DNA from: Phytoseiulus persimilis
Lineage: Eukaryota > Arthropoda > Arachnida > Mesostigmata > Phytoseiidae
Reading direction: 5' to 3'
DNA length: 64,000 bases
NCBI GenBank assembly: GCA_037576195.1
Contig: CM075102.1
Location: 24,548,745-24,612,744, forward strand
Part shown: one piece after another, positions 2,178 to 53,887 of the stretch
Layout of the letters: each line of letters begins with the position of its first letter
Position numbering within the stretch: position 1 is the stretch's first letter
The notes under the pieces: model-generated
What the model was told of the DNA's origin: nothing
Seen by the model: the letters and a program-made list of their open reading frames with translations, nothing else
Databases searched by the model: none
Made by a program: the position numbers and the translations under genes

Positions 2178-2369
2178 TCGGAATATGTGTCCTTAGTTAC
2201 TCGAACCTCGTTTTCCTAGCGGAAGCATATAAATCTCTTGTGTACTAGAATCAAACGATAACGATGGTGTTTTCATTCACTACGACGGAAGGATCGAGTG
2301 GCGAGCCACCATGAGGCCAGGGCGTATCGATGATTCGACCAGAGTTTGTCAACCTGTGTGTCGCCACAC

Positions 2370-2440
2370 ACCAGGGTGCCAAGGATGTCGCGGGTTGTCG
2401 AGGGTGCCAAGGGTGTCGCGGGGTGCCGGAAGGTAGCAAG
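2370..2440. repeat. Short GGTGCC/GGTGTCG-rich tandem repeat
   Basis: The stretch repeats words such as gggtgccaaggatgtcgcgg and gggtgccaagggtgtcgcgg with a period near 24 bp, decaying at both sides. It sits immediately left of the 45-bp units of the same block and is probably part of that element. Confidence 0.55.
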
Positions 2441-2479
2441 GGGTGTAAAATGAGGCCAAACGAAGCCTTCCTCCGTTCT

Positions 2480-2870
2480 GACCATAATTCGGTGATGATT
2501 CCGCCATACTTTTCGCGATTCCATGCGGGTGATTCCGAGGTCGATCCGACTATACTTTCTTGGTGTCATGGAGGTGAGTTCGAGGCCGATCTGACTTGAC
2601 TTTTCGAAGCCCAAATAGATGATTCCGAGGTCGATCTGACCATAATTTTCAAAGCCCGAGAAGGTGGTTTCAGGGTCTATCTGACCATATTTCTGGGGGC
2701 CAGGTCGACCTCGGAATCCCCTCCATTGACCCCGAAAACTATGGTCGGATCGAGCCCGGAATCCCCTCAAAAGTCTTCAGAAATATGGTCATAGTGACCT
2801 CGGGATCACCTCAATAGATCCCCAGAAATATGGTCAGATCGAGACGGAATCATCTTCGAAGTACGGTCAG
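2480..2870. repeat. Divergent 45-bp minisatellite units in head-to-head orientation
   Basis: Read on the minus strand, about 2480-2690 gives successive 45-base units opening TATGGTCAGATCGACCTCGG and ending in a GAAAA-type tail. From about 2694 to 2870 the same kind of unit (GGCCAGGTCGACCTCGGAAT, then 44 and 45 bases) runs on the plus strand. The orientation switch lies near 2690. The units match the consensus of the 31972-34530 array (GGCCAGATTGGTCTCGGAAT) in spacing and in their conserved half, but are much more diverged from each other, so this looks like an older or decayed array. Confidence 0.72.
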
Positions 2871-3450
2871 AACCAGTTAAGCCATCCTCCTCGGCGAGCT
2901 TACGGCTGCGGCACCCCTCGACACCCTGGGAAGCCAATGCCGGAGAGGTTTGACGTGCTCTGGAGTAATCGATGGGCAGGATGGCCAGTTTGACAACCTC
3001 GTTTGTGACATGGTGGATCGTAGATGATTCTCGATGAGGTCCAATTTTGGAAATCTCCTCTTGCATGCGGCAAATTTATGCCGAGGGTTGGGGAGAGCTG
3101 GAGGATCATCAGAATATTCGGGACAAAGACTTCGGAGCTGGATCGATGGATGACCATGAGCAGCTCCGAGGAGCCTTCTCTCAAAAGGATCGTTCCCTGA
3201 TCTGAGGCAGGAATAAAATGAACTTGACCTGCGTCACGATCAGGAAGGAGTGCACAAAACGAATGACGATCCGTGAAGAGGGAGGAAAAACAGACGCAAC
3301 AATCGGACCTCTCCTCCACTCTTTGGATTTATAAAAAGAGGCCTCCAGGAAGAACTCGAGTTTCCAAATGTATCAAGCACGAAGAGGCATTCTGATTCCC
3401 CTAGCGATGTGATGCCCGGGACGCCCCCCTCCCTGCTATGCTTCCGCCCC

Positions 3451-6400
3451 GGAGTTTACTACTGGAGTTGATCCTCACCATTTGGTCGAGTTTGAGGAAG
3501 GGGAACTTGGTCTCCGGCTACCCGGAGGGCTTGAGCGATCCCCGCGCACCGGAGCTTGAGCCGAGGGCGTCACAGGCCACCCAAGATGGTGGTACGCCTC
3601 CATCGACCCCTAAACCACTAGGGTAGATCTCCCGCCGTCGATTCCGACAGCTTGACGACTGCTGTCTCGGCCGCTCTCTCGAATCTGGGTGTCCTGCGTA
3701 AAAGATCGACACACCGATCCTTATCAATTTGTCGAACTTTCCCGATATTCTGGGTCGATGGGAATCAGCATCGGATCCCAGCTCCGCTGATTCGCATCGC
3801 CGGATCTGCCCCAAGTACAATCGATGATGCTGCACGGTTCCGTGCAACGGAGGTTACAACCATCGATCGTGCACTAGTGGTCAATAGAATACAGCCACCC
3901 TCGTGGATTTTTCTCAGCCATCCATACCTCTAATGAGAAATGTCCTGAATTTCGATATTGGAAACATCTCGTACAGAGAAGAGGAAGACAAAATCTCAAT
4001 CGAGACAAAATCTGGACATAGCGGAGGAAATCGATCCCGGAGTTCGCCGATATTCTGATTTTAAAAGGTCGTTTTCGAAGCCCGGTAACTCGCAATGACG
4101 GTGGCTGTGCGAACCCAAGAGTTCTCGATTGTTCTTCGATTCTTTGAAGTCTGACTACTAGGCCGAGAACAACGGAAGTTTCTGTCTGGGTCTTCGGTAG
4201 AAAAAAAAGACAACCCGAATTTATGCCTCGAACATGCGAACTCGGCCCTGATGTATATCATGGGAAGAAAAGTCATTGATTTGCGCTTCGAAGCATCGCT
4301 TTGGCACTTCCGCTGAACTAATCCAACGCAGCGACGTGTTCCCCATGATCTACGTCATTTACAAGCTCGGATGTTGAAGACAGACCCGACTTACGCCCTT
4401 GGCGCGCTCCATGTGTGTGGGGGGCTCTCTTTCTGTGACCGTTGATCGAACGAGGTAGACAACTCCGTGGCCCTCGACCCAAAGGTCCGATTCCAAGAAA
4501 TGGGAGAGCAATCGTAAGCCCTGTTCTTGAGCTATTATATGATGTACTCATGGTTGCGCGCGACCACCGTCGTGCCAACTTACCGAACTCCGAAAACGAC
4601 CTATCAAAATCAGGAAATTGGTGATTCGGGAAATCTCCAGAAGAGCTATGTGGTTGGAAAAAAGCTCAGATCTCTGAGGCCCTCCTCCTCCGAGGCGTTG
4701 GCGCGGATTGAGATTTCACCGCGACAACTATTCCACATGGAAGATCCACTTTTGAAAACATGGAAGAGTTCGGTGCTCTCATGATGCTCTATCTAGGAGT
4801 CGTAGAATCCAGCACCGGCTGGAAATTGGTATCTTCTGACTGCATGGTAGAAAGGGTTCCATTGTGCCCGAAAAGCTCCTCACTAGTACTGTGGCACACT
4901 GCTTGATTGGGGATTTTCCGCTCACAGGTAATGACGTATGCGACTCCCCGGATTCGGAATTGAGCCAATCACTATCCTCCTCGGTGGATCCAACCCGTTC
5001 TGCTATCGGTAACTCGGCTCCAAAGGACGTTCTCCCTCCCGGAGAACACGGATTTGGAGGTTTCTCAATATCACTGCAGGTCCGGCTGTCTGGTTTCCTC
5101 GATCGAGCTCCGCTGAAGCTCCTGGTTGGCGAGTACATTCGACAGTTGAGGCGGTGCAAATCGCGGATGTAATCGAACCTAATCGAGCTGCGATGGGTTC
5201 TTGAAGCGACTCAAGCTCTTGAGGCAATTCTGCGAACGCGCTTCCGATGCTTTATCGTACGCTCACTCACATTCACTCCCGGACTCCTCAGATTATTTTA
5301 AGCCGACGCGGAAGGAGTTTAACAACCACCTGTCACACGCGGTCCTGCGGAAGTGGGCCCATTCTGAGGCGGGGATGTCACCCTACTACGGAATTTAGCC
5401 CTTTCCATTCGGCAGAAGCGCGCCAAGGCCAGAAACCGAACGGAACCGTTCGCGACGCGACGCGTGGAAAAAAACACCCCACCTCAATCAGAATCGATGA
5501 TCGGCCACTGCGGCGTTCTCGCATTTGATAAAGTCCCCAAAAAGCTGGAAGCTGGGAGCAAAAGAGGAAGCAACTGATGTGTCAAGTTGCGAAGTTCTCC
5601 ACCGAATGGTTCTCCACCGAATGGCTGCTGAGCCAGTCTCGCCGGTCAGGGAGATTCTGATGTCAGCGTCGAGCAATCCAACCATCGGTCGCAGTTTTTG
5701 GGAACGCTAGTCGGTTGCTCGTGAGCGTCACTTTCCATGAACCAACATCGCGCTTGCGCACGGCTCCAAACTTGAACTCTCGTACCATCGCTCACTCGGC
5801 AGTCGGCTGAGGATTCAGATGGAGTTCTGAAATTATTTCAATCGACCGTTTCCATGGCAGTTTCTCGGTCCGACACGCCACAGGCTGCTCATTGTAATGG
5901 TTATTTCTGCCAACGTCTATTCACCCGGCTGTTCTACTCATCTGCGGGCGGAGTCCTATCAGACTCGTTCGCCATTGTGTTGGAGCTCTGTTCTCACGCT
6001 CGCACCCCCGTTACGGAACTCTTTCGGTGGAACGCTCCACTGGCATACGCATCAGAAACTTCACCTGTCGCATCAGGGTGGGTAAGGCGGCATCTGGAGC
6101 ATGTCCCTGGGATGTTTGGAACCATTGCGACTTGTCGTAATGGATATCGACCAACGCGCGAGACTTGCGAGACAAAGCTGAGACTTCCGATAAGAGATGC
6201 GAATTTTGCAAGTGGTGCTATACGGCGTACATGCGGCACTTCAAAGTGCCATTCTCCGCGGGGAGCTCCCCCGTTCTGGATTACGGGCAGGTTGCTCAAC
6301 GAATTCTGGCTCAATAGAGCAGGGCCGCGCCAGCGGGCGGGCTTCAACGAAAGGAGGCAAGTGCTGGTTCTGCAACTCTGCTGCATGAGTTCCTAGAGGG

Positions 6401-8842
6401 CAGTATCGGCAGAGAATGCTCACTTTTCTAGGGCAGTGGCCGTCTTCACGGCCATTCCAAGTTGAGAGTCTCAACTTGAGACGACCTCCACTTTCCGGGC
6501 CCGAATTGTCTTGGAGCCGGAATGTCTGTTTCGGGAAATCTCATGTATTGGTCGTCGCGGCTTTCATTGCAGCACCCTCATCATTCGTTGTGGAAGCTCA
6601 CCGCAATCAAATTCCGGACTACCTTCTGAATTTATTCCAATCAACGTTCAGGATATCCAACGAGTGCAATCCATGTTTATAGTTTAACCCCAGTTTGTTG
6701 TCTGATGACTTGTTCGGAGGACCCCGTTACTTTGAACTGCTACAGGGTGGCTCTCTTGAGTCGGGTTTCCGGGCCCGATTCCGTTCTTGCCGTAACTTCG
6801 TCAATTCTTTGGAATTCCCGAAAAAATCAAAAAGTGCTCGATGGAGGATTCCAAGACGTGGACTGGACATGACAGCCACGCCCGCGGAGCACTTCAGAAA
6901 ATAAATGAGTCACCTTCCAACCCATCTCCCGACCACGATTTCAGTCATCTCCAATCCATCAAATTGAACGAAAAATCACCGCCTCGAAATCTTCTATCGA
7001 GCTTTCTATTATTCCTGTCGAAAATCCAAGAATTGACAAGGTTACGGTCAGAAAATGATCGGTCTCGAAAATTCCCGACTTGGAAATGCGACCCTGCAGA
7101 TATTGATAGGAGAACTGTGGCATGTGGCATGGTCGTCCGTTCGAAGAAGCTCATATCTGATAGCCTCATTCCTGAGAGTGAATCGCTTTCAGGCAGTCGT
7201 AAGCGTCTTAGACGCTTCGTACGAGTTTCCACTGGCTCCTATACAAACTTCTGCGTGGATTCGACACAGAACGTTGAGGAAGATAGGCCGAGATCACAAG
7301 TTGGTTGATTGATTCCAAGTTCCTAATATATGAGTCTTGCTCTGACGATCATTAGGAAATAGGATTGTTGTATTCGTTTGTCCACTCGCATGTCCATCGG
7401 GGCACCGGGAAGATGGAGAACCTCCCCATCAGTGGTTCTCAACATCCTCGCGTCACCAATTTCCACCCCACCCCCTTTATCGTTGAGAATTCATGCGTAT
7501 TGGCTCGCCGGTACTGAGTGACGTTCAGGGCGGGACAAGCCGGAAGATCGCCGCCCCTGACCACGCCGACCGGAGGAACACTAAGGAAACGACTTGCAGA
7601 ATGCTAACATGCGGCTCCCAAAAGTCCCTCTTGGAGCCCTTACCGTCGCCTCTGTACCTCTGCCTTATCCAACCCCCATGAATCATGATGCCTTTGTCAT
7701 GATTCGATATTGAGGCATTCTGTGAGCATATCTCTGAGACCACACGCCCATGATGATTCCCGGAAAGATAGACGACGTTTGCCTGTAGATGCGGATCAAC
7801 AAAGTCGCAGATCCTAGCTAGCACCCTCCGTCTGTATGGAGACATTTTTTGGGGTCCGGAGGGGTTCGGCAAAATCAGAGTATTCACTCCGGCAATCGCA
7901 GGACCGGGCTTCAACATTATCAGAGCCTGTCGCGGGACTTCGTATCAGCGTTTCGCGTTGTGTAATCTTCGATTCCCAGCCTCGTGATAGACAATGAAGT
8001 AGAGCGGTCTGTCTGAACAACGTCAATGGAGAGAATTTTCCCTCGACAGATTGCGCTTGTTGGTCCGGAAGTCCGGATAGCGAGCCGTGATAGAGGACGA
8101 CAGCACGAGCTAGTCACGGGTTCGCACCTTAAAGCGCTCAGTATCAGAGTCTGCTCGACCGTGTGACTTCGGGCGGTCTCTGATGTATTAACAGGGTGCG
8201 ATCAACATTCCTTTGCGCGTCAATCAAGGTGTTTTGTCCTGGCGGATACGGTACTTGTCCATTGTCTTCATTGTCTGTGAGGGAAATTTCAGTAGGGCGA
8301 TCGAACCTTCAGACTTTTGAAGCTGGCGCGCCTTCTCCGCAGCTCCACCTAGAGGCACCCGCCAATAACGGCCATGTTTATTTTTTGAATTCAAAGTAAA
8401 TCGTTGTCCCTGCTTCTGGTAGCATACAGGCACACTCACACACGTCCACCCGAAAGGCGGGATTTCAAGTTGGGCGACAACAAGTTGGAATAATCGAGTC
8501 ATTACGGATCAATTGTGACGCAGTGCTCGTCAATGTACCCTCAAACTTTGGAGGTTCGCGGCCCCACAGTCGTGATGGCCCTTCGTGGTGAAACGAGTCG
8601 ATGATTCGCGAGAGCGGAGTGACTCAACAACGCCTTCGTCGCGAAAAAAAATCTGTTGCCGAAGAAACCTAGCAAAACTTCAGAGCTGTTGGAAATCTCT
8701 CTGTGGACTACTAAAGTGAAACGTCGTGGGACAGTACGGAACAGCATCGAGTGTATCAAACGATTGCTGACGAATCGGTTGATCGCACCCTCAATCCATC
8801 AATCAATCAGCTATACAAATTAAGAATAATTCAGCCCATATC
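3451..8842. other. Long intergenic stretch without a recognised gene
   Basis: More than 5 kb with only scattered ORFs up to 180 codons on both strands, none with a domain, cysteine pattern or homology I recognise, and no convincing exon chain. The best of these (5854-6396 plus and 7525-7917 minus) look like chance open frames. Near 5590-5630 there is a perfect 16-bp duplication (caccgaatggttctcc and neighbour). The right end must hold the ECT2 promoter. Confidence 0.4.
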
Positions 8843-11800
8843 ATGGATGAAACTGCAGGCTTGGAAATGACGGCTACCTCCAACGGCTCTGGTTCGAACG
8901 GTGAGTTGACGTGGTTGTGCAGTATCATGTGCTTGGACGATTCTCCAGGGGTACTCCAGGAATGGGAAGTTTACCCTCAGACATCAAGGTCAAGGGCTCT
9001 TGTCACCAGCTTCGCTTTGCCTCGTTTGTGCTCGTCCTGGCGTATGGATTTTCCAGTCGCAGGTTGGATAATATGAGAAACTGGGTGGAATTGGATCTTG
9101 CTTTTCAACTGAGCACAACTGATTCCCAACTGTCGAGTTTCATCGGCATCGGTGGGCTTCCCATAGCTTCCAGCGCTTCAGGCATGGGTTGGGCAGAAGC
9201 TCGACCAGAGGAACTGAGATGCCGGAGAAGTCGCTGGAAGTCTTGCTGAAAGACTGAAGAATGAAATAATCCGCGGAACAAATTTCATTCAGAAACAGGA
9301 TTCCTGAAATTCTGCTATTAGGGTTGTTCGAATCAGATCCTCATGTGAACTCAGATAAGCCATCCTGGATGTCTTGAGTATAGTCAGGCCGTGGGGAGTT
9401 ATCTTTACTCACGACCCAGCGCGGTCATATCGAAAATATGAGGAAGCCACGCCTATAATGAACCCATGACACGTGCAGACGCCGCTCATGTCGGCTTAGA
9501 AAGCCGGAGAAATTCCCCGAGTTCTGTCGGAACACTGTCATTCAGTTAAATCAGGCGGAGGGTACGGAAGCGATAATGGGTATTCTTTCAAGGACTGCTG
9601 TGAACTCTCACAAGCTCAATGGAGAAGTTAGCCGCAGCCGTCGCCTCCGTTCGTGAAATCGGCGCTCACGATCTGGCGCTCAGGTAACTGATGCATCGGC
9701 AGAGCAAGGCTCGAAATATTTGACACCGATTCATCGCGCCAATGATCGCTCACTCCTCGTTTGATGATGTTCCGCTGCCGTGGAATCAGAAAATTCAATT
9801 ATTCTCACGGAATAGTAGGCTCAGAGCGAAGTGTCTCTCATGGGTCGGGAAGCGAAGTTTCTCGGTGTCAATCCATTTCTGTTTGAGGTCCTTGACGCTC
9901 GAGATTTCAGATCTCTATTCTGTCTCTCGGCTGGCGTTGGGAGTGTTCGTAGGAGCCGCAACAGCATACCATCCAGTGTTGCTATGCGTTTTTTCATGCT
10001 CTGCAGGCTCTGAGCGTTGTAAAGAGACTGCTTACAGAGCTACGGATAATATCAATCCACACGATCCGTTTACGAGCTTGTGGTTCTCTCAACCAACGCT
10101 CCGTGACGCTCGTTAACTACGCTCGGTGGTTTAACTATGACGAACGAGACTCGGCAGACTCATCGTTTTCCCCGTTGTTATTGTCGACATCGATAACGAC
10201 GTTCTTAAGTCATATCCTATTGCACATGTCATCGAGATTCTCCAAAAGCGCAGAGCTCATCCGTCTCACATCGGTCTATTATGATCAGAGCCTGGAAGTT
10301 CAAAAATCCACGGCGTTTCTCCACATACTTTATCTGTTGTTATTGGTGCCCCCTGATTCTCGTGTGGCCGAACCAACTCATGGCCCCCTGATTCTCGTGT
10401 GGCCTCATTCTCTTCGTGCAAGCCTCAGCGACGGTCTCGAGAAGTGAGGCCCACCAACCTGCGATAGCCGAACGCTGACTGATGACGATGCACTTGAGCA
10501 CATAATATTGTACTGGAATTCGATGGAGAAAACGAAATTCTATACCAGTTGCGAACTGGTTTTGAAATGGCGGTGAATATTTCAGAGAAACTCAATCGGC
10601 AACTGGTAGACATAAAGAAAGCTTGCGTCATCCTTCCTGAGGGCGAAACCGAAGATACCGAACTCACCAGGGATTTGACGGTAGGGTTACTGTGGTTTCG
10701 AACTGTCTAGGTTCCCTTCACGGTCTCAGGCTGCGATTGCCTCGCTGTGACGGTCCGAATGTATAGAAACCAGTTGGATACAAAAACAAGCTCTTAAAAG
10801 GAAGTGCGATTTTTTGCAGCTTATGGGGCTTTGTGTACAATATTGTACCACGTCCCAAGTTGACCTGCAGCGGAACAATATCAACACCATCATAGTGCAA
10901 GACTTCGCTTCATTCCTCGAAACACGGGACCCGATCTTGCTTTATTACGGGCCGACATGCATCAAGAGGGAAGCGGCTCTGACTCCAGCTGGTCAGAAAC
11001 CTCAACTACCTTTCTCGGGGCACTCCATGCTCACTACGCTCCTGATGAACATCAAGTTCTGTCTGCAGGTGAAGAAAAATCAGGCAACGCTGAGAGCTCG
11101 AATCTACGCTTTGGGTGGGCGTTTGTCGAAGAAATTCCATGAGGCTGATCTCTTGATCACTTCGTACGCATCGGGGGATCAGTACAAACTCGCGCAGAAT
11201 TTCGGGATCCCGGTCGTGATCCCCGCGTTCATCGATGCCTTGTGGGAAAGGCGTGATAGCCTCGACTTCAGAGTTACGCAGGACTTCATAGATGGATTCC
11301 GGTTACCGGTCTTCTCAAGATTGAAGATGCATTTCTTCGGTTTCGAGAGCGGCAAGAAAGAAGAGCTCAGTGGACGAGCTACGGCTAACGGTGCCGCAGT
11401 TGTGGGCAATGTGTCGCGCGACGGGACCTACATCATAGTGGTCGACCGGAATTCTATCTCGTCGGAAGAACTCCAGAAGCTGGATCGAGACCTCGCGCCC
11501 GCGTCTACGATTGTGTATGAACCGTGGTTCCATGACTCGATTGCTGAAGGCTACGCGTTGTGTGAAAAACAGGAGAAATACAACGCTCGTCAGACAGCTA
11601 TTCAAGCGAGCGGTCGTACCGTTTGTAGTCCCACAGCACGGCGTAAGCGAGGCGCGGAAGCGAGTCCTGGCATGACTCCCAAGTCTAAGAAGTCCATGGA
11701 GTCCCTGCTCCTCTCGCCTAGAGTTGAGGAGCTTTCGCGTTTGGAGTCCTGCTCCGGAGTTCTTTCACCTGCGGCAGGTGCAGCGTCACCGATTCGAGCG

Positions 11801-14428
11801 GAGCAAATCACTGACAGACGGCATCTCATCCTATTGGAACTGAGGGACACCGAGAGTAATTATTTGGCGGTACTCCGATTCATCATGAAAATGGTCAACT
11901 CAAAACTCTGTGTTTCGATGAAGAACTCAACACCTCCTGAGCGAGGAGAGAGCGTTCCCAAGGAAGCACCGCACCCGGTAGAGAAGGAGATCATCACCCG
12001 CTTCGAGAGACAGGAAATCTTCAAAGAAATCCCCAACATCATTCGTCTCCATGAAGTCCTACTAAGGCGTATTGAAGACGCTCTTAGTGCCATGGATTTC
12101 AAGAACATCGCGGCAATTTTCCACGGAGAGGATGCTTGTGGCATAATCCCGGAGCTTGACAGTACGGGAAAAACTATCAAGAAACGTTCATCTCGTAAAG
12201 CTCAGGAACGGACGGTCAAGGAAAACAATATAGTTGCCGCCTACGAGACCTTCTTGAACGGCTTAGAAACGATAGTAGAGCGCGTAAAGACTCTGACGAC
12301 CGAGAACCCCGACTTCGCTGACTTTGTGAAAACCGTCGAACGCCAGCCGGAGTGCAAAAGGGAGAAATTTCTCGACCTCCTTATCCGACCCGTGCAAAGA
12401 TGGCCTTCGATTGTGAATATTCTGAAGAGTTACAGCGACGAAAGTGAGAAGCTCGCCAAAAAACTTGAGGATCGCTGCAGTGGTACGAAAGATGACGCGC
12501 AGCTCCGTAAAGAGGCAGCCCAAGTTCGTCTCGGAGCCCAAGACGCTCTCCGAGTCAGTCGATTCATCCAGGCCTCATTAATGCAGATGAACGAATCCAA
12601 GCATCAAACTGCGCAGATATGCGAGGCCCTCAAGACACAAAGTGTGATCGAAGACATTCCGGTAAGTTTGTTATTCCAAACGCGGCGATGGAAATCATGC
12701 GAGCTCGTACCGGAAGCTCAACTTTATGTTCAGCCAAGCCGTCAGCTATTCGGCAACGTGCGAGCTGCGACTTTCCACTGGAACCGAGCAATCCTGGGGT
12801 TTTTCAATACTGAAGTAATTCACTCATGATCGTTCTTCACTCGCAGGCGATGTATTGGTCGAAACAGTATACTCTTTCTCATCAATGTGATGCAACTCTC
12901 ACCGGGGTTTCGGAGTCCTACCCCCAGGCTTCGGGTCAAAAATCACTCAAGAACGTTGAGGTTGTGTGTTTTTTGTTTTCTCATGGTCTTGAGGTGAGTT
13001 TGATTCGTATTTTGAGATCCTTATCCAACAGTCGGAGCGGAGCGTCGGCTCATCGGTACGGACAATGGAACGGTACGGCAATTGGAGGGATTCTCTCCGT
13101 CGTTTCAGATTGCCCGCAAGAAGATTGGGAAGAACCATGCGAAGCCGTATAAACATGTCGCGTTTATTCACTTCGATAAGATGAATGCAATCATCGACAG
13201 CCTGGATCCCTCGCTCAAACGATTTCTCGAAATCGTGTTCCGCGAACAGCGAAAGTGAGTCATTATCCAGATAACCCCCAGATGTACGGGAGCCGCAATG
13301 CAGGAGTCTATTTCAATCCACACATAGACCTAACTCCTGAACCGGTAGGAATTATGCCATCTCCGAATCCGAGGTCGACACGGTGTCTCTTGGAGGTGGC
13401 TCCGATCTGGTTGCGTCTGAGTACACCGAGGAGCGAGTTCTGCTGGACCTGAAAGACGTAACGAGCAAGGAGGGTCTCCTGAAACACATGAAAGAGGAGT
13501 ACAAGGTGACCGAGCTAATTAATTTTGAAGATCGATTTTCATACGTCATGGTTCGACTGAAGTCGAATGAAGAACATGCGAGGGTCCGCAAGTTGAAAAT
13601 TGGATTCTCTCCCCAGGCTTTCGGACGGATCGAACGAATTTCAGTGTCAGAGCGTAAAGAGGGCGTTCGAACGGACTCTTTGTTGCTGAATCTGCCCTCG
13701 GGGTCTCACGGAACAACCCCGGTGACGCAATTAGCACGGTAAGGAAATGTCCTGGTTCTTCTAACTGACGATAGCTTGGGTCTAGATCCACCCTAATAGG
13801 CACATCCTTCCCCAGGTCGCTGTCTAACGTTCCTGATATATCAACGCCAAAGAAGCTGACGCGCTCATTCAGCAATCTGATCAAGAAGAGTTTCCAAATT
13901 GGTAACAAGGTAAGGTTCCGCTCACGTTCTGTGATCACTAACAATGCGTGTAACAATGCTAGGTATCGGGATGTTTTAGGTGCGGTGTCCATGTACGCTC
14001 ACTCATCTTTCAATGCGAGGAGAACTCATGATGAACATGGTCGGTTATTACAGCCGCGCGATGACCAGCCGACATCATCCTCGCCTTCAAACTCGAACGT
14101 CGGTCCGCTGAGCCGCAGTCGGCATACTGTAAGTATCTCAACGACTTCCTTGAGACCTCGCTTCTTCGGAGGTTTAAGTCCTTCATCTAATCATCATCGC
14201 TCTTCGATGTCCCTGGTGTTGCGAGAAAACTCGCCCGAGAATCAACCTCCATCGCAGCCAGATGAAAAAACTGAAGTCGAAGCGAAGCCGAACGCCAAGC
14301 GCAAAAAGGTCGACGGCGGTTTCGCGCTACCCGTCGGTCGAGCCCCAATCTCGCCGAAGTGGGTCAGGCGGTCGCTGAGTATCTCGAGGAAGAACACGAG
14401 CTCGAAGTCCGAAAAGTTAGATGTTTGA
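8843..14428 (+). CDS. ECT2: ECT2/Pebble-like Rho guanine nucleotide exchange factor
   Basis: Exons: 8843-8900, 10586-10680, 10871-12661, 12847-12993, about 13043-13254, 13349-13738, 13816-13901 or 13909, 13980-14428; phases agree across most joins. Order: BRCT repeats (from the NINTIIVQDF segment; SGHSML to ALWERR; LPVFSRLKMHFFGF to YEPWF), a basic linker, the DH domain (RRHLILLELRDTESNYLAV to the signature LLIRPVQRWPS), a split PH domain (VVCFLFSHGLE), then a Ser-rich tail with LTRSFSNLIKKSFQIG, matching the KKVTRAFSF region of vertebrate ECT2. The family activates RhoA at the cell equator with the centralspindlin complex to drive cytokinesis; the BRCT part autoinhibits the DH domain. The tail holds an NLS-like KRKK. 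About 1,070 residues. Weak points: the acceptor of exon 5 and the exon 7-8 junction. The Trp in LLIRPVQRWPS replaces the Leu of vertebrate ECT2. Confidence 0.9.
8901..10585 (+). other. First intron of ECT2, about 1.7 kb
   Basis: Bounded by GAACG|gtgagt and atttcag|AGAAAC, which keep phase 1 between the short N-terminal exon and the next. No nested gene is recognisable. It carries the direct repeat of 22 bp listed at 10348-10404 and is the longest ECT2 intron, a usual place for regulatory DNA, though no site could be named. Confidence 0.6.
10348..10404. repeat. 22-bp direct repeat 35 bp apart in an ECT2 intron
   Basis: gccccctgattctcgtgtgg plus cc occurs identically at 10348-10369 and 10383-10404, separated by 13 bp. 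This is a recent local duplication with no evident function. Confidence 0.85.
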
Positions 14429-31114: not shown

Positions 31115-31971
31115 CTGGAAGTCACTACGAACCACTTTTTGTGACAGCGGTTTGAAGTGCACAACACACACCTATGAAGTCTATTCACAAAACCACATTT
31201 CCACATGGAGAGTTCATTGTATGACTTTTTTCGACTTTTCTCTCATGTAGCATCAAAATATTCCTAGAGATCAAACTACTCTTGGGAATCCCAGGAACAG
31301 AGTAGTGAAAGTTTATGCGCCCCAAGAGAAGGAGAAGCTCATATTGGTTGCTTTCTGTGAACAGAAAGAGTTGCGATGCTTCGAGTCATAAGTTGTTCCT
31401 CACGGAAGTGAGTTTGGGGCATATAATATCGGTGGCGCACACAGAGGGAACGACATCGGTGATGATGGTGATCTCTGCTTATGATCGAGCAAGTCTTGAA
31501 GCGACTTTTGCTTCTCTTCAGGCTATCGATGCGAAGATCGGGGCTTCCCAAACAAACGGTGCTTAGAGCTATGCACATGATAGTGAGCTTCTTAGTTGAG
31601 GACCTGTTTTCTCCAACAGAATCGTTGGCCAGTCAGAGGTGGATATCTAGACAAAACCAAATCCGAACGACATAGGCTCAAAACAGAGCTCTTCAGTGCC
31701 GCGACTGATCGCGCGCCCGGCCGATGTTTCGCATTCGATATCGCCTCTTGACAGCATCCAGTGAACACTCGCTGAAATTGAATCTGCTCTGATGATCGGA
31801 GAACCTCAGTAGAGGTCAACGTGAGAGATTGTAGTAGAGGAGACCGAGATGTGCCGGTTCAGTCACCTAGACCCCACAGTTCAACCTTATTATATATTAC
31901 CCCCCACAGTTCAACCGGGACACTTCTGAGGGCTGGCTGAGAGGTTCAGCCGGAAAACAAAGACTCGGAGA
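31115..31971. other. No recognised gene; upstream of the THAP-like gene and of the 45-bp array
   Basis: A minus-strand frame continues upstream of 31114 to 31171, but an acceptor (gacttccag) sits just before the MPLCIYC start, so that part is probably 5' UTR or intron. The rest shows small ORFs only. At 31873-31915 the words ccccacagttcaacc recur twice, 30 bp apart, at the left edge of the array. Confidence 0.4.
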
Positions 31972-34530
31972 AGTATTGTCAGATTGGTCCTGGAATCACC
32001 TCTCCAGAGTAGGAGAGTGATGGCCAGATTGGTCTCAGAATCACCCCTCCAGAGTTGGGAAGGAATGACCAGATTGGTCCCAGAATCACCCCTCCAGAGC
32101 TGGAAAGTAATGGCCAGATCGGTCTCGGAATCACCCCTCCAGAGTTCGCAAGTAATGGCCAGATTGGTCCAGGAATCACCCCTCCAGAGTTGGAAAGTAA
32201 TGGCCAGATTGGTCTCGGAATCACCCCTCCAGAGTTGGAGGGTAATGGCCAGGTTGGTACCGGAATCATCCCTACAGAGTTAGGAACTAAAGGCCAGATT
32301 GGTCTCGGAATCACCCCTCCAGAGTTCGCAAGTAATGGCCAGATTGGTCCCAGAATCACCCCTCCAGAGCTGGAAAGTAATGGCCAGATCGGTCTCGGAA
32401 TCACCCCTCCAGAGTTCGCAAGTAATGGCCACATTGGTCCAGGAATCACCCCTCCAGAGTTGGAAAGTAATGGCCAGATTAGTCTCGGAATCACCCCTGT
32501 AAAGGTGGAAAGAAATGGCCAGATTGGTCTCGGAATCACCCCTCTAAAGGTGGAAAGAAATGGCCAGATTGGTCTCGGAATCACCCCTCCAGAGTTGGAA
32601 ACTAAAGGCCAGATTGGTCTCGTGAACACCCCTCTAGAGTTGGGAAGTAATAGCCAGATTGGTCCCAGAATCACCCCTCCAGAGCTGGAAAGTAATGGCC
32701 AGATCGGTCTCGGAATCACCCCTTCAGAGTTCGCAAGTAATGGCCACATTGGTCCAGGAATCACCCCTCCAGAGTTGGAAAGAAATGGCCAGATTAGTCT
32801 CGGAATCACCCCTCTAAAGGTGGAAAGAAATGGCCAGATTGGTCTCGGAATCACCCCTCTAAAGGTGGAAAGGAAATGGCCAGATTGGTCTCGGAATCAC
32901 CCCTCCAGAGTTGGAAAGTAATGGCCAGATTGGTACCGGAATCACCCCTCCAGAGTTGGAAACTAAAGGCCAGATTGATCTCGTAATCACCCCTCCAGAG
33001 TTGGAAACTAAAGGCCAGATTGGTCTCGTAAACACCACTCCAGAGTTGGGAAGTAATAGCCAGATTGGTCCCAGAATCACCCCTCCAGAGTTGGAAAGTA
33101 ATGCTCAGATTGGTCTCGGAATCACTCCTCCAGACTTGGAAAGTAATGCTCAGATTGGTCTCGGAATCACCCCTCCAGAGTTGGAAAGTGATGGTCAGGA
33201 TGGTCTTGAAATCACTCCTCCACAGTTGGAAAGCAATGGCCATATTGTTCCCAGAATCACCCCACCAGAGTTGGAAAGTAATGGTCAGATTGGTCGCGGA
33301 ATAAGCCCTCCAGAGTTGGTAAGTGATGGTCGGATTGGTCCCGGAATCACCCCACCAGAGTTGGAAAGTAATGGTAAAATTGATCGCGGAATCACCCCTC
33401 CAGAGTTGGAAAGTAATGGTCAGAATGGTCTCGGAATCACCCCTCCAGAGTTGGAAAGTAATGGTCAGATTGGTCCCGGAATCACCCCACCAGAGTTGGA
33501 AAGTAATGGTCAGAATGGTCTCGGAATCACCCCTCCAGAGTTGGGAAGTAATGCTCAGATTGGTCTCGGAATCACTCCTCCAGACTTGGAAAGTAATGTT
33601 CAGATTGGTCTCGGAATCACCCCTCCAGAGTTGGAAAGTAATGGTCAGAATGGTCTCGGAATCACCCCCCCAGAGTTGGAAAGTAATGGTCAGAATGGTC
33701 TCGGAATCACCCCTCCAGAGTTGGAAAGTAATGCTCAGATTGGTCTCGGAATCACTCCTCCAGACTTGGAAAGTAATGCTCAGATTGGTCCCAGAATCAC
33801 CCCTCCAGAGTTGGGAAGTAATGGCTAGATTGGTACCGGAATCACCCCTCCAGAGTTGGAAAGTAATTGCCAGATTGGTCTCGGAATCGCCCCTCTAAAG
33901 GTGGAAAGTAATTGCCAGATTGGTCTCGGAATCACCCCTCTAAAGGTGGAAAGAAATGGCCAGATTGGTCTCGGAATCACCCCTCTAAAGGTGGAAAGAA
34001 ATGGCCAGATTGGTCTCGGAATCACCCCTCCAGAGTTGGAAACTAATGGCCAGATTGGTACCGGAATCACCCCTCCAGAGTTGGAAACTAAAGGCCAGAT
34101 TGATCTCGTAATCACCCCTCCAGAGTTGGAAACTAAAGGCCAGATTGGTCTCGTAAACACCCCTCCAGAGTTGGGAAGTAATAGCCAGATTGGTCCCAGA
34201 ATCACCCCTCCAGAGCTGGAAAGTAATGGCCAGATCGGTCTCGGAATCACCCCTCCAGAGTTCGCAAGTAATGGCCAGATTGGTTCAGGAATCACCCCTC
34301 CAGAGTTGGAAAGTAATGGCCAGATTGGTCTCGGAATCACCCCTCCAGAGTTGGAGGGTAATGGCCAGGTTGGTACCGGAATCACCCCTACAGAGTTAGA
34401 AACTAAAGGCCAGATTGGTCTCGGAATCACCCCTCCAGAGTTCGCAAGTAATGGCCAGATTGGTCTGGGAATCACCCCTCCACAGTTGGGAAGTAATGGC
34501 CTTATTGGTCTCGGAATCACCCCTCCAGAT
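31972..34530. repeat. 45-bp minisatellite array, about 57 units
   Basis: Consensus unit begins GGCCAGATTGGTCTCGGAAT and ends GAGTTGGAAAGTAAT with CACCCCTCCA between, 45 bases in all. Because 45 is a multiple of 3, several frames stay open on both strands; the plus frame reads a 15-residue unit GQIGLGITPPELESN. Variant units recur in blocks: CTCTAAAGGTGGAAAGAAAT type near 32490-32580, 32805-32875 and 33890-34015; TTCGCAAGTAAT type near 32140, 32325, 32410, 32730, 34260 and 34440; and GACTTGGAAAGTAATGCTCA type only in 33120-33790. This shows higher-order structure and past block duplication. A one-base insertion near 32871 and a stop near 33825 break the plus frame, so I do not call it coding. 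Confidence 0.97.
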
Positions 34531-34779
34531 ATTTTTATGATAGATGTATAGGAGAGGCAGTGGGGAAGGATATCCGATGACGATGGGATGAGGCCTAAGA
34601 GTCTGGCTGGCGTCATAACGGGGCGGTGCACCTTATCGTCAGAATTTGGATGCGGGTGACAGTATGGAGGGGGTGAAAGTTGGGGTAAATCGCGAGGGGA
34701 GGGGGGGAGGGATGGGTTGCCTGTGTCCTTCCCGGTGAGCCGCTCTACATTATGCAGTTTGTTCCAAGTCGATCCGATC

Positions 34780-35520
34780 AATACCGGAGGAGCCTATTGA
34801 GGACAAACAAACAGACCCTGGATTTTTATATATATAGATTTACTGCGAATAGTTGCCCGAGACACACATGACACATGATCGTTTCTTGGCTTTCTCATAA
34901 GAGGAGATGGTCCAGTAGGGTAGGCAACTGATCTGGGAGCTCTGACTTCACTACCAGTGGCGTGGCGAGCCTCCATGAGGCCCGATCCACTGATTGTATT
35001 TTCGGAGGACCTCAAACGTAAAGAATGATGATCTGAAACAGAGATCTCCAACGAGATCTTACGAAAATGGAGACAACTAGCGCGAACTAATCCGAATCTG
35101 AGCAGCTAGATTATCATGTGAGCAACTGGATAACCTATTCTCGGAGGGCAACTTCCCGCACTCCAGGAGCTGCAAACTCTTCCATGGACTCATCGAAGTT
35201 GAACTTATCCATGATGGACATCTTAATAGATAGGACAGCGAGTTTGGTCAACCGAGTTGGCTCGATCTCCGATCCGAGGCACAACAAAATGCACTGAACG
35301 TTGCCTCTCGATCAGGGAGGAGGACGAGAATCAGATGATGGTTCATGAAGAGGGTGAAAATTCAGATGCAAGGATCGGACTTTGCCCCCACTGTGGGGAT
35401 TCCGGAGGAAAGATATACCTGGAAGAGCTCAAGTTATCTAATGTAACAGGCATAGAGGCGTTCTGATGCCCGGCGCAGAGACAGTGACGAGTACCGGGAT
35501 CCGGTATTTTCCAGGAGGAA
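34780..35520. repeat. Right flank of the array, second copy of the dispersed element
   Basis: No gene is recognisable. About 35215-35490 resembles 2970-3430 in the same order and orientation, including GAGTTTGG/CAGTTTGA, CGATC(C/T)GAGGCA, GATCAGGGAGGAG, CATGAAGAGGG, AGGATCGGAC/CAATCGGACC and GAAGAG(A)CTC(A/G)AG(T)T. A further match, GTGGCGAGCC(A/T)CCATGAGGCC, links 34969-34991 with 2289-2310. Each copy therefore has 45-bp units on one side and the same unique flank on the other. Confidence 0.6.
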
Positions 35521-37189: not shown

Positions 37190-37660
37190 TTCGTACCACT
37201 CTTCTCGCTTCACGCCGTTATTCCCCCTTTACTTTTCCGCGCACCGGCTTCGCACCACTTTCCCGCGCATCTGCTCGGTACCACTATTCTCGCATCACCA
37301 TTCTGGCTCCACTTTTCCGTGAATCTCACCCCCATTCTCGGCTCTGTCTCTCCGCTTATGGGCTTTGCACCACTATTTTCACCCCGGTTTCCCACATGTC
37401 TTCTGCGCACCACTATTCCCACTACACTTTTCCGCGCGCCTGCTCCGAACCGTTATTCTCGCTCCGGCTCTCCGCGCATGATTTCCGCACCACCACTCCC
37501 GCTTACTTCTTCGCCGTATCGGCTGCGAACCGTTATTCTCGCTCCGGTTCCCCGCGAATGATTCCTGCACCACCACTCTCGCTTACTTCTTCGCCGTATC
37601 GACTCCGCACCACTTTTCTCGCTCCACTCATCCGGGCATCTGATACGCACCCCCACCACC
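37190..37660. repeat. Degenerate ~40-bp minisatellite
   Basis: Pyrimidine-rich units built on gcaccactattctcgctcc and ttccgcgcat recur through the interval. The clearest part is an 80-bp higher-order unit starting at 37447 and again at 37527 (gaaccgttattctcgctccg each), each made of two ~40-bp halves. ORFs on both strands across it (for example 37121-37561 plus) follow from this periodicity and are not taken as genes. Confidence 0.8.
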
Positions 37661-52900: not shown

Positions 52901-53140
52901 CAAGTTTGCTTGCCCACAATGTTCGCGCTGGACTGTCTGCGTCAAACTGTCCGCGCCAAGTAGTCCAGGCCCGACAACGATCCGAGGCTCTTGGAACCGA
53001 GGCTGAGGCAACGATTGAGCAAAGGCCGGATCAGAACTCTCTCATCTGAAGCTCACCAAGTGAGCTCAGGCGCGAGCGAGTTCCCGTGCTTCCTGCTGGA
53101 GACCCTCTCACACCGAGTGTTTGATCGACAAGTAAGACAA
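46931..53140. other. Long stretch without a recognised gene
   Basis: About 6 kb of moderate ORFs (up to 180 codons) with no domain I know and no exon chain that holds. A C-run of 10 is at 47238-47247. The minus-strand frame 48703-48305 and plus frames at 49653-50534 were examined and left uncalled. If genes exist here their exons are too short or too diverged for inspection. Confidence 0.35.
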
Positions 53141-53887
53141 TCATGAGTAAAGCTCCCATATGACCGGACATGTCCTTTCCCGTCCGTTTGTCCGGTTTTC
53201 TTGAGCAACCGAGGAAATGTCCGGTTTTCAGGCTCACAGATCGAGTGGCCAACCATGACTTTGAATGATTTTCCCATCAAAAAAATCGATGGGTTTCGGG
53301 CAACAGAGCGCGAAACGATTCCGGGATTGTAAGGGGATGAGTGAACAGCGGTTTTCCAGCAGCCGGAATATCGATCCTCGCTCTTAATCTGCGGAGCGAT
53401 GGAGGTAATGCCCTCTGGCGGCCTCGTCGATATGAAACCACATGAGCCAGTGATTACACGCTGGGTAACATTTCTGAGCGCCGAATTCCACCTTCATGAA
53501 AATTTTGAGGGAATCAAATTGTTCGGAGATAAACGTAAAACCTGCGGACAGCTCTCGCTGAAACCCTAAGTCGATGACCCATTTCTTTTCCATGTACAAG
53601 AACCTTTTTTCGGACAGGAGACATAGCTTGTCACGATCGAACACAAAGAGGCCCTTATCGATCAAGTTCATGCGGACCTACTTTTCGACGAATAAAAAGC
53701 CTGTGACGGTACCTAAGCTAGTCCGATAGGAGGGGTCCTCATTCAATACTTTCAAATGCTCAATTTATCTGGAGAAAGTCTGAAATTTGCATGTCCGCCT
53801 CCTTGACCGGTTTCAGGCAAAATGTCCGCCGGCAAATGTCCGTTTTTCGCAAAAAAATGTCCGGTCATATGAGAGCTCTAAACATGA
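53141..53887. mobile_element. 747-bp element with 31-bp terminal inverted repeats
   Basis: Left end 53141-53171 and the reverse complement of right end 53857-53887 match at 27 of 31 positions, including catatgaccggacat without a mismatch. Copies of the subterminal word ATGTCCG or TGTCCGGTTTT crowd both ends (near 53170, 53190, 53216 and 53790, 53821, 53836, 53857), as in hAT-like and some other DNA transposons. No clear target site duplication was found. The interior carries one minus-strand ORF. Best read as a non-autonomous or internally deleted cut-and-paste element; superfamily unassigned. Confidence 0.75.
53384..53671 (-). CDS. Hypothetical ORF inside the inverted-repeat element
   Basis: 95 codons, opening MNLIDKGLFVFDRDKLCLLS and ending HIDEAARGHYLHRSAD. 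It lies wholly inside the element. It has no recognisable catalytic triad or zinc finger. It may be a relic of a transposase or chance. No neighbouring frame continues it. Confidence 0.25.
   Translation of the reverse strand: MNLIDKGLFVFDRDKLCLLSEKRFLYMEKKWVIDLGFQRELSAGFTFISEQFDSLKIFMKVEFGAQKCYPACNHWLMWFHIDEAARGHYLHRSAD

Follow-up and report, generated by a model that had tools for sequence, protein, structure and literature searches.

The repeated segment that occurs twice in the analysed window (the whole 64,000-nucleotide stretch of Phytoseiulus persimilis DNA) is a non-autonomous terminal inverted repeat (TIR) transposon (MITE) of Pegasus-like type. One copy, henceforth called copy A, lies at 34955-35479 on the plus strand, and a diverged relative of the same family that is foldback-interrupted or rearranged, copy B, lies at 2298-3442, also on the plus strand. 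In the full reading, in which we have considerable confidence, the family leaves 8-bp target site duplications (TSDs) and would have been moved by a hAT-type helper, the 45-bp minisatellite array beside copy A would belong to a separate, second dispersed family, and the foldback of copy B would be secondary.

The genome (181 Mb, 127 contigs) was searched with positions 34780-35520 of the window, which yielded at least 39 other loci (the best 40 of 635 first-look candidates were scored) with 77-80% identity across most or all of 34988-35471 among these best 40. The 20 best of the at least 39 A-type loci (L009-L028) were fetched with 8 kb each. In an all-vs-all comparison, homology between the A-type copies extended over about 600-640 bp and stopped on both sides (among the rows listed). 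Again among the rows listed, the aligned copies start with CAGTGGCGTAGCGAGCC and finish with CTCGCTACGCTACTG, an imperfect inverted repeat, and the terminal inverted repeats can be written as CAGTGGCGTAGCGAG / CTCGCTACGCTACTG. Ends were surveyed in 19 copies, L021, which lacks its 5′ end, being excluded. The 5′ end is present in all of them and both ends are recognisable in 11, while the 3′ TIR was not recognisable in the other eight; the distance between the family ends is 596-643 bp. The family hence consists of numerous short copies that lack a transposase gene, and a 110-aa ORF in one copy gave no match in a Pfam search. Two further observations were made on individual copies. Several of those without the 3′ TIR stop shortly past GATGCCCGGGGCGGA, a motif found near the 5′ end as well. 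The copy in L014 interrupts a fragment (oriented 3036-3734 and beyond 4337) that we take to be hAT-transposase-like from its motifs; a Pfam search with this fragment gave no match, and further ORFs of the same locus resemble transposases by eye.

Target site duplications were determined on the 11 two-ended copies. Eight of them are flanked by an 8-bp duplication agreeing at seven or eight positions, and the remaining three agree at 2, 3, and 3 of 8 positions, i.e., they have no duplication. Lengths from 2 to 12 bp were compared, and those other than 8 were found in 0-1 of the 11 copies. The mean agreement over the 11 copies was 6.2 of 8 as opposed to 2.5 for shuffled pairing; per position, 7-11 of the 11 copies agreed at positions 1-8 and 1-4 of 11 beyond. 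Because the inverted ends are accompanied by such duplications in 8 of 11 copies, the family was classified as a MITE, which bears out the proposal of the initial annotation that the segment stems from a non-autonomous, multi-copy DNA element bounded by TIRs. Since the duplications are confined to eight positions, they point to cut-and-paste insertion with an 8-bp stagger, and the MITEs would have been moved by a transposase from elsewhere that cuts its target DNA in this manner.

This helper is most likely a hAT-superfamily enzyme, an assignment taken from general knowledge of such ends. Elements of the P superfamily likewise leave 8-bp duplications, so that hAT is not proven, and they can be foldback-like, e.g., Galileo. 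A P-superfamily transposase could thus have mobilised the very same MITE family, and it would accommodate both the duplications and possible foldback-like forms; we regard it as rather unlikely, given the customary hAT assignment of such ends. For the MITE family with its probable hAT-type helper, the two copies in the window are described in the following.

Copy A is an old copy of the family. Its 5′ TIR, CAGTGGCGTGGCGAG (34955-34969, plus strand), has one mismatch to CAGTGGCGTAGCGAG, and its 3′ TIR is not recognisable past about 35479. When the whole window was scanned for the 5′ TIR with up to three mismatches, four sites were found compared to 1.12 expected. Positions 34984-35479 align to the family copy in L028 with a score of 528. 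Identity of copy A to the majority consensus is about 79.5%, as against 88.1-96.3% for the 19 relatives, and judged by these values copy A is either older than the sampled relatives or a member of another subfamily.

The 45-bp minisatellite array to the left of copy A (31980-34529, plus strand; about 57 units, with 56.6 copies at 87% in TRF and 57 in the unit scan) appears to be a separate dispersed repeat family that landed near copy A. With the array as query, at least 310 matches were obtained in the genome (the best 39 of 1591 candidates were scored), and its first 541 bases share 87-92% identity with other arrays on the four large contigs among the matches listed. The relation of arrays to MITEs was assessed by scanning the 20 sampled MITE loci for the 45-bp unit. 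At a threshold of 28 of 45 matches, the 8 kb of each locus contained no unit in 18 cases, one in L012, and 79 in L021. Because copy B units reach no more than 25-27 matches, the scan was repeated at the laxer threshold of 25 of 45, which would also catch copy B-type units. At this threshold, 14 of the 20 loci had none, L021 had 80, and L009, L012, L015, L016, and L019 had one to three units each, always outside the element; the background, estimated from shuffles of one locus, was 0 or 1. Even under the lax setting, 19 of the 20 sampled A-type copies therefore contain no internal unit, and the long array was rejected as a part of copy A on the basis of this sampling. The initial annotation had pictured an element with an internal minisatellite and a conserved segment, which does not apply to copy A, where the array lies outside and stops 425 bp before the 5′ end, but does apply to copy B with the units of its foldback. 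Array and MITE are joined in one of the 20 loci, L021, where the array runs directly into the MITE with its tail (...GTGCGGACGAACAGACAAACTGACAAACTGACAAACTTACAGACGAAGCCGATTATATATAGTAAGGAT) at the junction and the first ~125 MITE bases are absent from that side; these bases may lie beyond the far end of the array. Two other interpretations of the repeats were checked. Several frames of the array are open for hundreds of codons, which is possible with an indel-free period of 45, and coding potential was rejected; the units differ, by eye, at amino-acid-changing positions. A search of the window for structured RNAs returned neither a tRNA nor an Rfam match at the gathering score.

Arrays of this family share a fixed tail at their end, ...GACAAACTTACAGACGAAGCCGATTATATATAGTAAGGAT, and the short terminal repeat there is variable. 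A 220-bp tail query returned at least 74 rows (the best 40 of 1398 candidates were scored), and 41 of the 43 strongest stop at query position 214-220. Eight tail loci (L029-L036) were inspected, all of which carry 33-35 units within 1.5 kb on the array side. The end motif was found within three mismatches in seven of them, L034 being the one without it, and an extra AGTAAGGAT or AAGGAT stands at the tail end in two (L032 and L036). A MITE match was present in one of the eight, L029, which is the same place as L021. The flanks past the tail have nothing in common at E 1e-4, and the eight loci consequently represent separate insertions. A constant 3′ end combined with a variable short repeat, shared by independent insertions, is typical of non-LTR retroposons. 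The array family shows such an end, which suggests target-primed reverse transcription in trans as the route by which it would spread; the family is possibly retroposon-like, as judged from its 3′ end. Carried further, whole arrays (tens of units with a LINE-like 3′ tail) may have been copied by a trans-acting reverse transcriptase, one of them landing in the L021 MITE and an older unit set being folded into copy B, a tentative proposal to which we give somewhat less than even weight.

Further tail-like sequences were recorded. In L030, two array tails follow in succession at 1400-1600, as if one insertion lay within another. In the window, positions 34745-34850 (plus strand) may be a degenerate array-family 3′ tail; the signal is weak, with a score of 36, whereas 300 mononucleotide shuffles of 34700-34960 reached 29 at most, and the sequence GGACAAACAAACAGAC...TATATATAG there resembles array tails by eye. 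For the tail against 34500-34700, a score of 32 was obtained at a shuffle maximum of 33. The match at 31800-31990 (score 36 vs 30) was rejected as the array's own first degenerate unit.

Copy B was compared with the family copy in L028, to which its 3′ part (3095-3442) aligns and its 5′ part (2298-2332) aligns only weakly. A search with 2940-3480 gave at least 39 other loci with 68-78% identity in the main match (the best 40 of 267 candidates were scored). The interior of copy B is occupied by a foldback with nested inverted arms at 2402-2935 (arm pairs 2402-2428/2909-2935, 2475-2503/2845-2873, and 2528-2593/2701-2766), and DNA folding of 2440-2900 resulted in a z-score of -8.55 with none of 100 shuffles equally stable. 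The foldback contains six degenerate 45-bp units at 2504-2834, three on the minus strand (starts 2504, 2594, and 2639) followed by three on the plus strand (2701, 2746, and 2790), each with 25-27 of 45 matches in the unit scan; TRF reported 2581-2689 and 2706-2842 inside copy B. Positions 2527-2688 match the L035 array (70% over 164 bp, E 6e-9), the foldback also matches the arrays at the other seven tail loci and at L021, and in the comparison of the two unit sets the copy B interior scored 52 and 57 in its two orientations, for which 100 shuffles each reached at most 38 and 35. An accidental meeting alone is not a sufficient explanation for the units common to copy B and the arrays. It had been claimed that each of the two flanks stands to the right of 45-bp repeats; TRF confirmed this, and the two unit sets are related.

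The one B-like relative seen, in L020, aligns with copy B over 2966-3442 and has other DNA without a 45-bp unit upstream of the aligned part. Foldback-related sequence also occurs outside MITEs. At L012 1748-1915, three degenerate 45-bp units (two plus, one minus) lie about 2 kb from the MITE and match the foldback weakly, and L013 607-700 likewise has a weak match to it (72% over 99 columns). Considering L020 together with these two matches, the foldback may represent an independent, old repeat taken up by copy B, as far as the one B relative indicates. Degenerate relatives of the 45-bp unit would in this case have come to lie as a foldback between the MITE ends by secondary insertion or rearrangement.

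Alternatively, the elements could represent a single foldback transposon in which the 45-bp units originally belonged to the TIR element and its internal repeats expanded into the long arrays. Copy B with its inverted 45-bp units between MITE ends, the homology of these units to the free arrays, and the L021 array joined to a MITE all agree with such an origin, for which there is a precedent in Drosophila virilis, where the foldback transposon Tetris gave rise to tandem arrays (excerpt of PMC4079207). We nevertheless consider it improbable because even the lax threshold revealed no internal unit in 19 of the 20 sampled A-type copies, the B-like copy of L020 is free of units, with other DNA in place of the foldback, the arrays end in a fixed tail of their own that interrupts the MITE in L021, and inverted degenerate units lie outside the MITE in L012.

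Helitrons are not known to have target duplications or terminal inverted repeats. The Helitron-like reading of the initial annotation, i.e., a Helitron or Helitron-like non-autonomous element with an internal minisatellite, was therefore rejected as highly improbable, since the MITE family has both inverted ends and 8-bp duplications, even though central tandem repeats are present in certain relatives of Helitrons, the DINEs (according to a table of PMC9659126).

The resemblance of the two right-hand flanks in the same orientation was reproduced by direct alignment (35259-35471 vs 3187-3400, local score 99), for which 300 dinucleotide shuffles of 2280-3500 against 34955-35520 gave a mean of 22.5 and a maximum of 34. 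Chance similarity of two unrelated flanks, which the shortness of some matches might suggest, is practically negligible given a score of 99 over a shuffle maximum of 34 and at least 39 other loci per query. The predicted further genomic copies thereby exist for both A and B. The limits first given for the flanks, 2970-3430 and 35215-35490, are covered only in part by the direct alignment; against the copy in L028, A aligns over 34984-35479 and B over 3095-3442. A proposed link by GTGGCGAGCC-CCATGAGGCC (2298 and 34962) falls within the family's 5′ terminal repeat and to this extent stands, but is weak on the B side, with a score of 32.

The MITE family belongs to an already known kind, MITEs with 8-bp duplications. 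Searches of the open-access literature for tandem repeats within MITEs, foldback elements, or retroposons, for the MITE end sequence, and for Pegasus returned nothing tied to this family. The family explains the flank resemblance and supplies copies for comparison and mapping. Of greater interest than the MITE is the neighbouring array family, possibly a minisatellite that moves in the manner of a retroposon. Should the arrays be mobile as units that include a retroposon tail, they would offer a natural test of minisatellite dispersal along chromosomes versus expansion in place. Elsewhere in the window, an ORF at 10814-12829 contains BRCT and RhoGEF domains (Pfam), presumably in the combination of animal Ect2/pebble. 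Another dispersed repeat lies at 53139-53465 (80-81% identity to L010:2257-2636), positions 6741-7096 have matches of 71-82% in both orientations in the L032 flank, and C-rich tandem repeats with periods of 26, 40, and 80 were found by TRF at 37231-37625.

RTE-like non-LTR retroposons have short terminal 3′ repeats. The array family is similar to them in its fixed tail and in the extra AGTAAGGAT or AAGGAT of two of the eight loci; in contrast, its body consists of 45-bp tandem units, and the likeness concerns the 3′ end. For the MITE family, the closest counterparts are the Pegasus-like MITEs of the silkworm, BmMITE-13 to -16, which are described with an unspecified 8-bp target duplication and whose ends begin with CAGTGGCG in three of the four families and with CAGTGGCGTACCTA in BmMITE-15 (excerpt of PMC2997013). 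The CAGTGGCG end thus goes with 8-bp duplications in the silkworm, and the Phytoseiulus family shares these ends, the duplication length, and the shortness of the elements; it is longer, however, with 596-643 bp compared to 263-431 bp (same excerpt of PMC2997013). Copy B resembles Tetris and the TIR-220 satellite of Drosophila virilis, as presented in the excerpt of PMC4079207, in having inverted arms and units related to free long arrays, whereas in Phytoseiulus 19 of the 20 A-type copies are without an internal unit and the arrays bear a tail of their own.
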